A stretch of DNA of 64,000 bases from a virus, in the IMG/VR virus record IMGVR_UViG_3300033183_000299, positions 119,931 to 183,930 of that record; one strand, written 5' to 3'. The translations under genes were made by a program, and so were the position numbers. The notes below the pieces were generated by a model. It ran no database searches. It was given only the letters and a program-made list of their open reading frames with translations, and was not told the origin of the DNA. Below are positions 2,651 to 11,113 of this stretch, piece by piece (within the stretch, counting starts at the first letter, position 1; the number at the start of each line of letters is the position of its first letter).

Positions 2651-5260
2651 TTACAATTTGACTTGTGCATACCCGTCAGTCTTATCGATCTCAATTGTTG
2701 TATCAACAATGTCCTTGAGACTTTCTAAATGAGTGATCAGCAATACTGTTTTGAATTGAGTTTTGATCATCTGAAGTAATTGAACAAAACCTTCCATATG
2801 CTCAGCATCTAATGCCGTTGCCGGTTCATCAAGAATGAATAGTTGGCTCTTTGGTAGAGACGATACTGAGATTAGGGCAAGTCGAACAGCCATAGAAGCA
2901 ATTGTCTTTTCAGCACCAGACCCCATGGACAATGGTCGAGCATCATATTTCGGATGCTTTAGGTAGACCTCCAACTTATCTCCATCCTCAGCAAAGAACA
3001 CTTGAAAATCAACGATGGAAGAAAGAACTTTTTGGATCTCATCGTTGATGATTGGAAGCATTGATTTGATAACTTCGTATGAAATTCCATTCGCATGAGT
3101 TGCTTTTACAAAGATGTCATAAGCAATGTAATCACGCTCAGCTTCTTTGATTTGTTCAATTCTCTCATTGGCTTCCTGAATCATACGTTCAGCAGAACCT
3201 TTTTCAGACATGTACCCAAGAACCTTTTCATCGCATCGTTTGATATCGGCAATCTTCAAATCAACAGTCTTATTGATTGCTAATAAGTCTCTCTTAAGGG
3301 AGGAAAGGTTTTCATACGCTTCAATGTTTTCGTTGTAGTATGCGATATCTGAATTGAGCTTCTCGATACGATGCTCAGCTAAAGATGCTTTACCTTCAAA
3401 GTTTTCCCACTGAATACTCATGTTTCTGATTTCATCAGTTAGTTTCTTATGAGATGTTTTGCTATCTGAATATCGATTGATAATGTTGTTCAGCGCTTCT
3501 TCATCAAACAAAGAACCTTTCATTTTAAGATCCAAAAGCTTTGACTTGATGTCTTCAATCTCAATATTCATTGGAGGTACTTTGCTTTTTGCTGCTTCCG
3601 CTTCCTTTACAAACTCATTATCGCAACAATATTTACAATCCGGATCGTACTCATGACCTTTGAGCATATCTATCTTTGATTGTAAGTTATCTCTCTTACG
3701 AGTTTTGCTTTGGAGGTCTTTGGTCAACTCTTTTAATTCTGACTTGATGGTCTCTAGGTCTTTGAGTTCAAGTTCAGCCTTATTGGAAGCTTCAAGCATG
3801 CTTGGAAGAGAAGAGGTCAAATCTTCAATCTGAGAGCGTTTTGACTTAATCTTGGTAGACAATGCCTCCATTTGATTGCGAGAACTTGAGAGTGTCTTTT
3901 CGGCCTCTTTAAGAAGTGATTTGACTGAATCAATATCTATCTCTTTTTGGGATGCTGCCTCTACTTGTTCTTTGATCATCGTTTGTTCTTGTTTAAGGGT
4001 ATCTAAACGGATATTGTGTCGATCGCATAAGTCTTTTTGAACCTCGATATCTTCAAGGATCTCGGACAACTCCTCTTTCGCTCGAGACAATTTCTTATCC
4101 CAATCAGCAGATTGAAGATGTTTGATTACGCCACGCATTTCGGCAGAGTCTTGCTTTGCTAGTTTGTGCATTTGATCAAATATTTGAAGATCCAAAAACT
4201 TAGCCAGAATTTCTTTGCGTTTCGTTGATCCTTCGCTGATAAATCCAAAAGAATCGTTCTGTGCTGCTAGAGAGGTCATCATAAAGTCCTCTAATGACCC
4301 AAAAGTATCCTTGATGTTATCATCAGTTTTGTTTCGGGTATCTCCATTTTTGGACTCCGGAGTTGTTCCAAAGTTATACTTTGTAAAGTCTAGCTCTGTT
4401 TTAGCCGAGATGACTTCTCGACCTTTAGACTTTCCGGTTGTTTTTTCGAGGCTTCGAGCAATTTTATAAACATCATCGCCGACAGCGATCTCGAGCTTAC
4501 AAGAAGCTCTTTCTTGGTTTTGATTGATGATATGGACATTCTTTCTTTCTCCCTTAGATGTAGTATTAAATAGGCCAAACAAAGCAGCGTCAATAATTGA
4601 AGACTTGCCTGAATAGTTTTTACCGAAGATGCCCACAAGCCCATTTAACTTGCTGAAATCTAGAGTATTGCCTTTTCCGTAATTAAATAGGTAGTCCCAC
4701 TTCATTTTCTTAATATCCCAAACAACATTTCGAGATACGCCGTTCGATGAATCAACTTTCTTTAAATACTCTTGCGAAAGCTCAACTACGCGATCTTTGA
4801 CTGAGTCTTCAACTTCATTTGTCTCCATAAATTCACGAAGAAACTTTTCTTGATTCTTTGGGTCTCGCATGTTGATTGCCTTACCGCCATTGGCTGAAGA
4901 CACCGAAGCTGATGACTGAGAATTGTTTACAAAAGAAACCGAATGAGTCGACCACTTAACTTGGGCGTAATCGCAGGCTCTCTTTAATTTTGCTGTGGGT
5001 AAGTTATAATTACAAACCAATCGTAAACGAGCATTCTTGGGTACATCTACATTGGGTAGTGTACCATCTTGATTTAGATGCACTGTAATAAATGGTCGAG
5101 GAGATTGGAATAATCTTTTCTCGATTGAATGCTTGTCTTTGGAGTGAATATTCCAAATCAAATAACCTTTTAGGCGAGACTCTCCAAAGTTCTGTTGCAC
5201 AGTGCTGCCTGCATAAATGCAGATGCACTTCTTTTTTCTTAATTTAATTTTTTTAGCCAT
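2651..5260 (-). CDS. 46: Rad50/SbcC-like recombination ATPase (gp46-like) carrying the C-terminal part of Mre11 at its N-terminus
   Basis: This is the SMC-type ATPase subunit of the phage recombination nuclease, which processes DNA ends for recombination-dependent replication. It shows Walker A GKNYSGKS (213-220), long coiled coils (about 370-540 and 550-720), a zinc-hook motif CKYC (542-545) at their apex, an ABC signature LSMGSGAEKT near 777, Walker B LFILDEPATALD (807-818) and an H-loop LLITH near 840. Residues 12-95 do not belong to Rad50: IYAGSTVQQNFGE followed by KGYLIW is the segment that normally follows the last catalytic motif of Mre11/SbcD. The missing front of that Mre11 is the gene at 6101-6787, beyond an HNH gene. 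The start at 5260 has a GGAGGAC site lying inside the end of the HNH gene. Confidence 0.93.
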   Translation of the reverse strand: MAKKIKLRKKKCICIYAGSTVQQNFGESRLKGYLIWNIHSKDKHSIEKRLFQSPRPFITVHLNQDGTLPNVDVPKNARLRLVCNYNLPTAKLKRACDYAQVKWSTHSVSFVNNSQSSASVSSANGGKAINMRDPKNQEKFLREFMETNEVEDSVKDRVVELSQEYLKKVDSSNGVSRNVVWDIKKMKWDYLFNYGKGNTLDFSKLNGLVGIFGKNYSGKSSIIDAALFGLFNTTSKGERKNVHIINQNQERASCKLEIAVGDDVYKIARSLEKTTGKSKGREVISAKTELDFTKYNFGTTPESKNGDTRNKTDDNIKDTFGSLEDFMMTSLAAQNDSFGFISEGSTKRKEILAKFLDLQIFDQMHKLAKQDSAEMRGVIKHLQSADWDKKLSRAKEELSEILEDIEVQKDLCDRHNIRLDTLKQEQTMIKEQVEAASQKEIDIDSVKSLLKEAEKTLSSSRNQMEALSTKIKSKRSQIEDLTSSLPSMLEASNKAELELKDLETIKSELKELTKDLQSKTRKRDNLQSKIDMLKGHEYDPDCKYCCDNEFVKEAEAAKSKVPPMNIEIEDIKSKLLDLKMKGSLFDEEALNNIINRYSDSKTSHKKLTDEIRNMSIQWENFEGKASLAEHRIEKLNSDIAYYNENIEAYENLSSLKRDLLAINKTVDLKIADIKRCDEKVLGYMSEKGSAERMIQEANERIEQIKEAERDYIAYDIFVKATHANGISYEVIKSMLPIINDEIQKVLSSIVDFQVFFAEDGDKLEVYLKHPKYDARPLSMGSGAEKTIASMAVRLALISVSSLPKSQLFILDEPATALDAEHMEGFVQLLQMIKTQFKTVLLITHLESLKDIVDTTIEIDKTDGYAQVKL

Positions 5261-6048
5261 TTGTCCTCCATTTTATTTGACTTTTTTAAATTTTCTTTCC
5301 ATGGAATGAATTGCAAGTTTGATATATCACCTATGATATCTGGGGATATATCGTTTAACCATCCATAGGAAATTGGTATGATATGGTCCAAATGATAACA
5401 ATCTTCATTCAAATCAGATCTCCCCCTTTTATCATAATGAGGCAAGGTAGATAAATCTTGAGATTCTGTTATTCTCTTTACTTGTTTATAATATCTTTCT
5501 TTATTGCTCAATTTGGCCTCATATTCTTCAAATGGAATTCCAACCATCGTCTCTATTAATGTTTTGCGTCGGCGCTCTATGACATCTGCATCAATCATAG
5601 AGGCTGCGAGTTCAAGCGAGCCGGAGCCATACATCTCTATGCATGTTTGTTCACATTTTTCTCGGCATTCTTTATTGGACCAATTGTGTCGAGAGCCATA
5701 TTTTTCTAAATAAGTCTGTTTTCTCCTTTGAATAGATTCTGGTGACCATCCAAAATTATAGCCTGTTTCTTCAAAAAATTTTTCTCTTGCTTCTTCTCGA
5801 GAAGACAAAACTTTGTCGACATAGTCTTCGTCTTTCCAAAATTCAATCATTGCTTTAGATTTCAAGAGTTTTGATTTCTCAGACTGCTCTTTCCCATACA
5901 TATGGTTTCCTTCACCTTTCATTATTTTCTTTTTATGTTCATCGACGCAGTTTCTAGAGCAATAGTGTCTTTTCGATCTCTTGAGTCTAGATGTTGCTTT
6001 TTCAAATTCAACACAGCAATTATCGCACTTTATTTTAGTCATTTTCAT
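5239..6048 (-). CDS. HNH homing endonuclease with zinc finger and NUMOD3-like motif, inserted in the Mre11-Rad50 locus
   Basis: A 269-residue mobile endonuclease. A zinc finger (CDNC near residue 8 and CSRNC near 30) leads into a NUMOD3-like DNA-binding segment (GEGNHMYGKEQSEKSK). The HNH catalytic motif is at the C-terminus: HLDHIIPISYG around 220, then NLQFIPWKENLKKSNK. Such enzymes cut a conserved site in alleles lacking the insertion, and repair copies them in. It separates the two halves of what looks like a single Mre11-Rad50 reading frame, and its 3' end overlaps the start of the second half by 22 nt. The start at 6048 has a GGAGG site, and a candidate late-promoter motif lies 35 nt upstream. 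Confidence 0.88.
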   Translation of the reverse strand: MKMTKIKCDNCCVEFEKATSRLKRSKRHYCSRNCVDEHKKKIMKGEGNHMYGKEQSEKSKLLKSKAMIEFWKDEDYVDKVLSSREEAREKFFEETGYNFGWSPESIQRRKQTYLEKYGSRHNWSNKECREKCEQTCIEMYGSGSLELAASMIDADVIERRRKTLIETMVGIPFEEYEAKLSNKERYYKQVKRITESQDLSTLPHYDKRGRSDLNEDCYHLDHIIPISYGWLNDISPDIIGDISNLQFIPWKENLKKSNKMEDKWLKKLN

Positions 6049-6083
6049 TTTTTACTCCTCCCTTATGTTTTGTTGGATAGTAG

Positions 6084-6091
6084 TAAATAGT
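6084..6091 (-). promoter_or_regulatory. Candidate late-promoter motif ACTATTTA
   Basis: A perfect ACTATTTA on the minus strand, 35 nt before the HNH gene start and just after the end of the Mre11 N-terminal piece. It would let the inserted endonuclease be expressed separately from the nuclease genes. Confidence 0.45.
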
Positions 6092-6100
6092 TTTGCTGAA

Positions 6101-6787
6101 CTATTCTTCTACAATTTCCCAACCATTCTTGAGAAATTTATCTAATTCAGATTCATCAATCTCTATTTCTTCATATTCATTTTTATTGAAATCTGAAGTT
6201 CCGAGTCTTTGAGTCTTGTGAATATCTCCAAGCATGGCGTAATCAAAGTCTTCGAAAATTGAAACATCGTCTTCTCCATGGTCCAATGAGAACCCACTTC
6301 CAACCATTGAGCCACGAACAGCTCCATGATACAAGGCTATGTTGATAGCGTTTTCATTAGATGGGGCTTGCCAATTATCTCTATCGAACACAGAGAGAAC
6401 ATTGAAAGTCAGACCTGGCTCTGGAGAGTATTCGCCTGAGTTTTTCAGCAAAGTGAAATTTGGATGATTCATTGCCTCAACAATTGGAGTCACCGCATCT
6501 TGACGATCTCCATTTTTAAGATTTCCATCATGATTTCCAAGAATCATAATTGTTGGTGCGATATCTGCGAGAGACTTCAAAAAGTTAGAAGCCATCTCAA
6601 AATATTCTGGTGATAATTGTGTTTTTGTGTGAGCAAGGTCACCAGTATGTACAATGTAGTCTGGTTGCTCTTGCTTTAATGAGTCATATATTTGATTAAA
6701 CACGTGACGATATTCGTCATGATATTTAAGGTTTCGGATGTGTGTGTCACTAATGTGGCTAATTCTAAACATTTTTTTCTTAGTCAT
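6101..6787 (-). CDS. 47: Mre11/SbcD-like nuclease (gp47-like), N-terminal catalytic piece only
   Basis: This is the metallophosphoesterase nuclease partner of Rad50. Metal-binding motifs appear in order: D14 and H16 (SDTH), D50 (TGDLAH), N85-H86 (GNHD), H154 (YHGAV) and H190 (GDIHK, with Asp in place of the usual first His). The fold then stops: residues 196-228 are a highly acidic tail ending KNGWEIVEE, where other family members continue with the YPGS-like segment and capping domain. That continuation is found at the N-terminus of the protein at 2651-5260, on the other side of an HNH gene. At 228 residues it is much shorter than T4 gp47 (about 340). The start overlaps the previous stop as ATGA, with a GGAGG site. 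Confidence 0.9.
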   Translation of the reverse strand: MTKKKMFRISHISDTHIRNLKYHDEYRHVFNQIYDSLKQEQPDYIVHTGDLAHTKTQLSPEYFEMASNFLKSLADIAPTIMILGNHDGNLKNGDRQDAVTPIVEAMNHPNFTLLKNSGEYSPEPGLTFNVLSVFDRDNWQAPSNENAINIALYHGAVRGSMVGSGFSLDHGEDDVSIFEDFDYAMLGDIHKTQRLGTSDFNKNEYEEIEIDESELDKFLKNGWEIVEE

Positions 6788-10579: not shown

Positions 10580-11113
10580 TTAAGTAGTTTCTCCCCATTT
10601 CTTCTTTAGGTATTCCTCTATCTTTTCTTCAACCAAATATTTGTAAGAGCTATGGACGTACAAATGATGAGTCGGACACAATGGTACAAGATTCTTAGGA
10701 TCATCATTATCGTGATTTTCATCATAATGATGGACGGCGACAATCTTATCTTCTCCGCACACTACGCACACTTTTTCGTGATGAGCCCAGCAGATGCTTC
10801 TGTAAGAATTGCCGGTGCCATAATGGTTTGGCATTATCTCTTTTATTCCCCCAATTTTTTGAGCAGCGTCTTTGCATGATCTAGAACAGAAAAACAAGCC
10901 AGATTTCGATTGTTTCTTTTTGCTGTTGTTTTTGTAAAATTCCTTCCCGCATTTTGCGCACTCAACATTTGGTTTCTTAGGCTTTATTTTTGATACCCTA
11001 TGTGCTGCTGAACATTTTCTTGTACAAAATTTTCCATTTCCCCTCTTCACTTCTCTCAATAATGCTTCAAACTCTTTGCCGCATTGTAGACATGGTTTTT
11101 TAATTGTAGTCAT
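10580..11113 (-). CDS. HNH endonuclease with two zinc fingers
   Basis: A 177-residue protein with two treble-clef-like zinc fingers, CLQCGKEF...FCTRKC (about residues 8-35) and CAKCGKEF...FCSRSC (about 52-80). The HNH nuclease core near 125-155 reads CVVCGEDK...VHHYDENHDNDDPKNLVPLCPTHH. This fits a free-standing homing endonuclease of the kind common in large phages. It has an AGGAGG site, its own upstream ACTACTTA motif and a strong terminator after it, and therefore forms a self-contained unit between the tRNA gene and the structural pair. The target cannot be deduced. Confidence 0.85.
   Translation of the reverse strand: MTTIKKPCLQCGKEFEALLREVKRGNGKFCTRKCSAAHRVSKIKPKKPNVECAKCGKEFYKNNSKKKQSKSGLFFCSRSCKDAAQKIGGIKEIMPNHYGTGNSYRSICWAHHEKVCVVCGEDKIVAVHHYDENHDNDDPKNLVPLCPTHHLYVHSSYKYLVEEKIEEYLKKKWGETT
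10581..10588 (-). promoter_or_regulatory. Motif ACTACTTA overlapping the HNH stop codon
   Basis: The last codons of the HNH gene (Thr-Thr-stop) spell ACTACTTAA. A transcript starting here would reach the UUCG terminator after roughly 60 nt. It may equally be a chance match within coding sequence. Confidence 0.3.

Follow-up and report, generated by a model that had tools for sequence, protein, structure and literature searches.

A putative splicing-free homing cassette splits phage Mre11 at one conserved site and appears to carry a two-part protein clamp

We analyzed a 64,000-nucleotide stretch of viral DNA (hereafter, the window), which forms positions 119,931 to 183,930 of the 183,930-base virus record IMGVR_UViG_3300033183_000299 in IMG/VR. 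In this window, the gene for a phage Mre11-Rad50 fusion protein is broken in two, with a homing-endonuclease-like gene of the HNH type between the halves. Homing endonucleases in coding genes are normally rendered harmless by introns (through RNA splicing) or by inteins (through protein splicing). Our analysis instead points to a homing cassette that needs no splicing, that inserts at one conserved site of Mre11, and that brings its own two-part protein clamp, a reading to which we assign a probability of roughly 0.8. The parts of the clamp are an acidic tail at the end of the upstream protein and a basic head at the start of the downstream one; that they function as a clamp is what we infer.

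On the minus strand, the locus reads in the order Mre11-like piece 1, HNH gene, and piece 2, the last comprising the C-terminal part of Mre11 followed by Rad50, and all three open reading frames (ORFs) lie where a preliminary description of the sequence had placed them. Piece 1 (6787-6101, 228 amino acids) resembles calcineurin-like phosphoesterases and SbcD up to GDIHKTQ (PF00149 Metallophos, E = 8e-15; phrog_100, E = 4e-20). Its residues 1-195 (6203..6787) hold all metal-binding motifs and are 88-92% identical to intact fused relatives, after which the chain runs through GDIHKTQRLG into the cassette-encoded acidic tail, TSDFNKNEYEEIEIDESELDKFLKNGWEIVEE, and a stop codon (6101..6199). The tail carries the motif EYEEIEIDESELDKFLKNGWE at ~6116-6178, has a net charge of -8, aligns with the tails of 15 other pieces, and is absent in intact relatives. 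The HNH gene (6048-5239, 269 amino acids) follows a Shine-Dalgarno-like GAGGAG (6055..6060), and its family matches are those of a homing endonuclease (phrog_5104, E = 4e-19; phrog_3339, homing endonuclease, E = 2e-8; DUF7487, E = 5e-9). These matches, together with comparisons to the related loci L198 and L256, divide it into a recognition half with zinc-finger, NUMOD3, and DUF7487 elements and an HNH catalytic end. Piece 2 (5260-2651, 869 amino acids) overlaps the end of the HNH gene with its start, and its Shine-Dalgarno GGAGG (5265..5269) lies within the HNH reading frame; the HNH gene and piece 2 each have a good ribosome-binding sequence. It opens with MAKKIKLRKKKCICIYAGSTVQQNFGE, in which the cassette-encoded basic head (MAKKIKLRKKKC; 5225..5260) aligns with 14 other heads of the form M(x)KKIKIKK and, together with the junction, has a net charge of +7. 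The C-terminal part of Mre11 (YAGSTVQQNFGE ... KGYLIW ...) and a linker to Rad50 come next (4721..5224, by alignment with intact fusions), and the remainder (2651..4720) is an SbcC/Rad50-like ATPase with a coiled coil and Walker A and B motifs (AAA_23 PF13476, E = 6e-12; PF02463; phrog_77, E = 6e-60).

The ancestral state of this locus is a single ORF. Around 200 related phage loci have an uninterrupted Mre11, often fused to Rad50, and the intact fused relatives in IMG/VR encode the Mre11 phosphoesterase motifs and then the Rad50 ATPase on one chain of ~1,035-1,062 amino acids. Microcystis phage Mel-JY01 and a 735-kb phage likewise carry an intact Mre11-Rad50 fusion. The closest relatives of the window, all with an uninterrupted ORF, are up to 92% identical over piece 1 and up to 75% over piece 2. 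The junctions of the intact fusions, many of them on IMG/VR contigs, align exactly across the break, and the opening of piece 2 (KKIKLRKKKCICIYAGSTVQQNFGE...KGYLIW) aligns with their Mre11 continuation. These results support the split-fusion interpretation of the preliminary description, which had proposed both that the Rad50-like ORF starts with the missing part of Mre11 and that the ancestor was one fused polypeptide. In 81 distinct intact junctions, the loop from GDIH to the (G/S)S motif measures 13-15 residues, and neither tail nor head occurs in any of them. Furthermore, GDIHK is not a natural end of Mre11 in any relative, since all 19 genes truncated at this point carry the tail.

The same break recurs in other phages. 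We found at least 18 other split phage Mre11 genes, every one of them cut directly after GDIH, which together with the window gives at least 19 contigs; the sampling of split contigs is incomplete, and counts from scans that did not use the tail are lower bounds. Recurrence of this split, tail included, in 18 other contigs excludes chance. Split loci among the matches listed in searches made without the tail were L151, L252, L256, L265, L268, L278, and L311, while a joint pattern of GDIH and tail added L207, L211, L212, and L214. In the 484-kb phage LR756508, the split falls at the identical position, and the tail there (SEYEVEEMVVEEDELEKYLNSGWKLDENLDDY) has the motif found in the window, with a nuclease that is TnsA-like, not HNH. 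No locus split without the tail was seen among 225 loci, which include at least nine from scans not using the tail. A gene-blind DNA pattern for the tail matched 40 contigs. In eight of them the match was the tail of an Mre11 cut after GDIH; many of the remaining contigs carried homing endonuclease repeats, and no other recognizable split gene was present among the 40. A tblastn search of phages with a single tail yielded nothing useful, probably owing to the low-complexity filter. In a pattern scan of 84,980 bacterial and archaeal genomes, there was no Mre11 match, and only chance matches were obtained. One candidate for a broken Mre11, L275, was rejected as merely frameshifted. Since the same cassette splits Mre11 genes that are not fused (L176, L182, L186, L256, L265, and L268), the Rad50 fusion is incidental; the earlier statement that one Mre11 half is joined to Rad50 is true in the window and does not define the system.

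Tail and head are conserved as a pair. In all 19 upstream pieces, the chain ends with the acidic tail, ExE(I/L)DExELDKYLKxGWE. The aligned tails have in common (E/D)(I/V)x(E/D)xxLxxYxxxGW, in which GW is invariant in the 16 aligned pieces and the E/E/L/Y positions are nearly so, and the downstream pieces that were readable begin M(x)KKIKIKK..P.I.Y.GS. The net charge is negative in all 16 tails (-3 to -9, mean -6.4) and positive in all 15 heads (+1 to +7, mean +5.2). Within the tails, nonsynonymous differences per site (pN) amount to 0.27 vs 0.60 for synonymous ones (pS), and in the helix part to 0.19 vs 0.55. A similarity of the tail to DUF4177 (E = 0.02-0.15) is under the Pfam cut-off and was not used. 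The new tails at the break points noted in the preliminary description are present; they are, however, not ad hoc additions but belong to the recurrent cassette, in which they are conserved and with which they are transferred. The C-termini of homing endonucleases (L166-L205) contain repeats of the form ...WIxN...KxIxxxELDxYLxxGWKxGR that resemble the Mre11 tail, and the tail may, by this resemblance, derive from such a repeat.

That the parts travel together is illustrated by L176 and L186. The DNA of their Mre11 N-terminal pieces is 67% identical, whereas the tail, the nuclease, and the first head codons are 97.8% identical; identity becomes complete within the GDIH codons and falls to ~60% right after KKKIKIKK. 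The edges of this 97.8% block lie at the cassette borders, and the unit is therefore mobile. In a tree of the Mre11 core built without the tail (88 rows, 19 of them split), the splits are scattered, 14 changes are needed, and at least nine of these are forced by strongly supported branches. The nearest neighbor of the window in this tree is an intact gene with 93% identity.

The nuclease itself is exchanged: HNH, Vsr-like, and TnsA-like nucleases all occur in the insert, and in some loci there is a remnant or no nuclease at all. The window HNH shares 44% identity with the one that occupies this site in L198. Compared with the Vsr-like nuclease of L256, its recognition half is homologous (shuffle z = 24) and its catalytic half is not (z = 1.4); with homology in the recognition half alone, target recognition and clamp therefore stay while the cutting domain changes. 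No close relatives of the window HNH or of the LR756508 piece were found in the IMG/VR scan. Elsewhere in the window, a second HNH-type ORF with zinc-finger motifs lies at 10580-11113 on the minus strand (phrog_1271, E = 6e-22). L178 has a T4 late promoter-like sequence, TATAAATA, in the stretch (~1,913-1,972) that separates the stop codon of the tail from the start of the nuclease gene, and L182 has a partial match to it.

Tail and head persist after the nuclease has decayed. In L211, only 36 residues that match the HNH end are left, L184 and L268 retain ~100 amino acids of a Vsr-like nuclease, and in L151, L265, and L311 the nuclease is gone; tail and head are kept in all six. The two pieces are 109 nt apart in L151, and in L265 stop and start are separated by ~4 nt. 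In L264, a single ORF (GDIHKRQIFIHKQTMEVDKENLERYIKIGWVVDDDKNSAKINIKKVIPICYSGSLIQQ) carries the tail, a short linker, and the head on one chain without a nuclease, and the tail profile finds this insert at E = 1.5e-4 with L264 not included in the profile training. As read from its ORF, this allele no longer has the nuclease, and its tail and head have become re-fused.

We used L264 to obtain a predicted structure in which both ends are present. The AlphaFold2 model (predicted local distance difference test, pLDDT, 86.6; predicted template modeling score, pTM, 0.86) shows the strand of the GDIH hairpin extended by the tail (residues 200-211), a helix at 212-220, and the head strand at 233-244. 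A second AlphaFold2 run with an alignment of the split pieces gave the same elements at lower confidence, and a Foldseek search with the L264 model returned SbcD/Mre11 structures. In the predicted structure, the downstream piece completes the Mre11 fold. The preliminary description had the active site completed across two chains; this sharing does not strictly hold, as the metal-binding motifs DTH, GD, NHD, H, and GDIH all lie in piece 1, whereas the next core strand and the remainder of the domain come from piece 2. Chain position and charges suggest pairing between the strand of the tail and that of the head.

These observations bear on the reading that tail and head are functionless insertion scars, with the tail an in-frame fragment of a homing endonuclease repeat and the halves reassembling unaided. 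The motif ELDxYLxxGW does occur in the C-terminal repeats of homing endonucleases, as this reading expects, but tail and head outlast the nuclease and are still there in the allele that re-fused. Without exception their charges are complementary, and in the AlphaFold model they adopt a defined structure. We therefore regard the scar reading as unlikely.

If, on the other hand, the insert were a self-splicing intron, the tail would be readthrough, and RNA splicing would restore one Mre11-Rad50 message. The locus does have the classical intron layout, with a nuclease gene lying within a conserved one, and the tail sits where readthrough would fall. However, no group I or II Rfam match was found in the inserts of the window, L003, and L151, even at E <= 5, and inserts as small as that of L265, or without a stop as in L264, do not fit an intron. 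Nor does an intron account for a tail and head whose protein sequence is conserved between divergent phages, amino-acid changes being rarer than synonymous ones, or for the good start codon and Shine-Dalgarno sequence of piece 2 in the window. An intron thus appears very improbable.

The other splicing-based reading follows the fractured genes that Dassa and colleagues reportedly described in 2009, in which a gene is broken, a free-standing nuclease lies between the halves, and split-intein ends join the halves. Applied to Mre11, tail and head would be intein halves that splice the pieces in trans. In fractured genes, the intein ends ligate the halves, whereas the Mre11 ends, with a tail of ~30 and a head of ~12 amino acids, are far below the size of intein halves, and nothing suggests ligation. 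There is no conserved Cys or Ser at the tail start and no His-Asn before the junction, the Pfam scan gave no intein domain, and the healed allele L264 retains tail and head in one chain. The 2009 work, as cited in PMC3229294, speaks in favor of this reading, which we nevertheless consider even less probable than an intron. Judged by these sequence features, we conclude that the intron and split-intein readings fail.

Two other inserts were observed at split loci. L214 has a 98-amino-acid ORF between its Mre11 pieces (minus strand, ~4,549-4,845) that resembles neither a nuclease nor any Pfam family and is possibly foreign cargo in a cassette without its nuclease. In L265 (6461-8281), L256, and L268, an intein-like insert apparently breaks the Rad50 gene at Walker A (GGK|C ... 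HN|T); in L265 it matches Pfam Intein_splicing at E = 4e-5, below the family cut-off. Such an insert would mean that two kinds of selfish insert strike the same Mre11-Rad50 pair.

For the homing cassette, we propose the following mechanism. The cassette comprises codons for the acidic tail (a strand and a helix ending in GW) and a stop, then the gene of a homing nuclease, which has a ribosome-binding site to itself, and last a start codon and the codons of the basic head (strand KKIKIKK). The nuclease would cut intact mre11 alleles, repair would copy the cassette in, and Mre11 would then be made as two chains. Tail and head would lengthen both strands of the cut hairpin and pair by opposite charge, capped by the tail helix. 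As the predicted structure, the charge pattern, and the conservation suggest, the halves would thereby reassemble non-covalently, with no splicing of RNA or protein, and the nuclease would work again, retaining Mre11 activity. Nuclease decay leaves the split and the clamp in place, and in one allele re-fusion has made tail and head a small inserted domain. Several points weigh against this mechanism. The relatives are, with few exceptions, metagenome contigs, and homing activity is deduced from one very clean pair (L176/L186) and the scattered phylogeny. The nuclease-free inserts indicate that not all copies are mobile today, the pairing of tail and head is read off the secondary structure of the single-chain healed allele, and the head of the distant L003 is weakly basic (+1). 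We think it reasonably probable that the cassette represents a third route, next to introns and inteins, by which a homing endonuclease can persist without harm in an essential gene, namely a mobile, nuclease-independent, two-part clamp that moves with the nuclease and non-covalently rejoins the broken protein.

The closest known case is nrdA of Aeromonas phage Aeh1, which is split by mobE insertion and gives a functional two-chain enzyme (Friedrich et al. 2007, as described in PMC2988022). As in the Mre11 cassette, an HNH gene splits an essential phage gene, and the two chains have an extra tail and head. The Aeh1 NrdA halves (L329/L330) have strand-like ends that are oppositely charged in the reverse order, with a basic tail (...KMLFKVKKSEVDKFK...) and an acidic head (...YEVYEDEEYTTVEIEVD...). 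However, Aeh1 is a single case, unlike the recurrent Mre11 cassette, its tail has no match to the Mre11 tail profile, and we saw no evidence in this analysis for joint transfer of its tails and the nuclease, or for the same tails next to nucleases of other families. By analogy, the two splits would work alike, with homology not supported by the profile search, and the NrdA ends raise the prospect that the charge-clamp idea may be general. The splits of T4 gene 60 (mobA) and Aeromonas phage 25 gene 43 (PMC2988022) are likewise homing-endonuclease-associated fissions with functional reassembly, as proposed for Mre11, but no shared mobile tail/head module is described for them in that source. Yoshida et al. 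(2011, PMC3175470) reported Mre11/Rad50 fusion proteins of the same kind from Mimivirus, a phage, and plasmids, and aquatic viral metagenomes commonly contain them; unlike for the window, that study mentions neither a split nor a homing insertion. None of the papers covered by our literature search describes a split phage Mre11 or a shared tail module.

Gene splits such as that of Aeh1 nrdA had seemed rare accidents. The same split at one site in ~20 phages, with one tail/head pair and interchangeable nucleases, therefore looks like a strategy. The alleles with a full nuclease, a remnant, no nuclease, and re-fused halves form a natural series for how protein fission evolves and heals, and the tail/head pair would be a small natural split tag for joining protein halves at a hairpin. 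Altogether, a central phage recombination enzyme becomes testable as a three-gene split.
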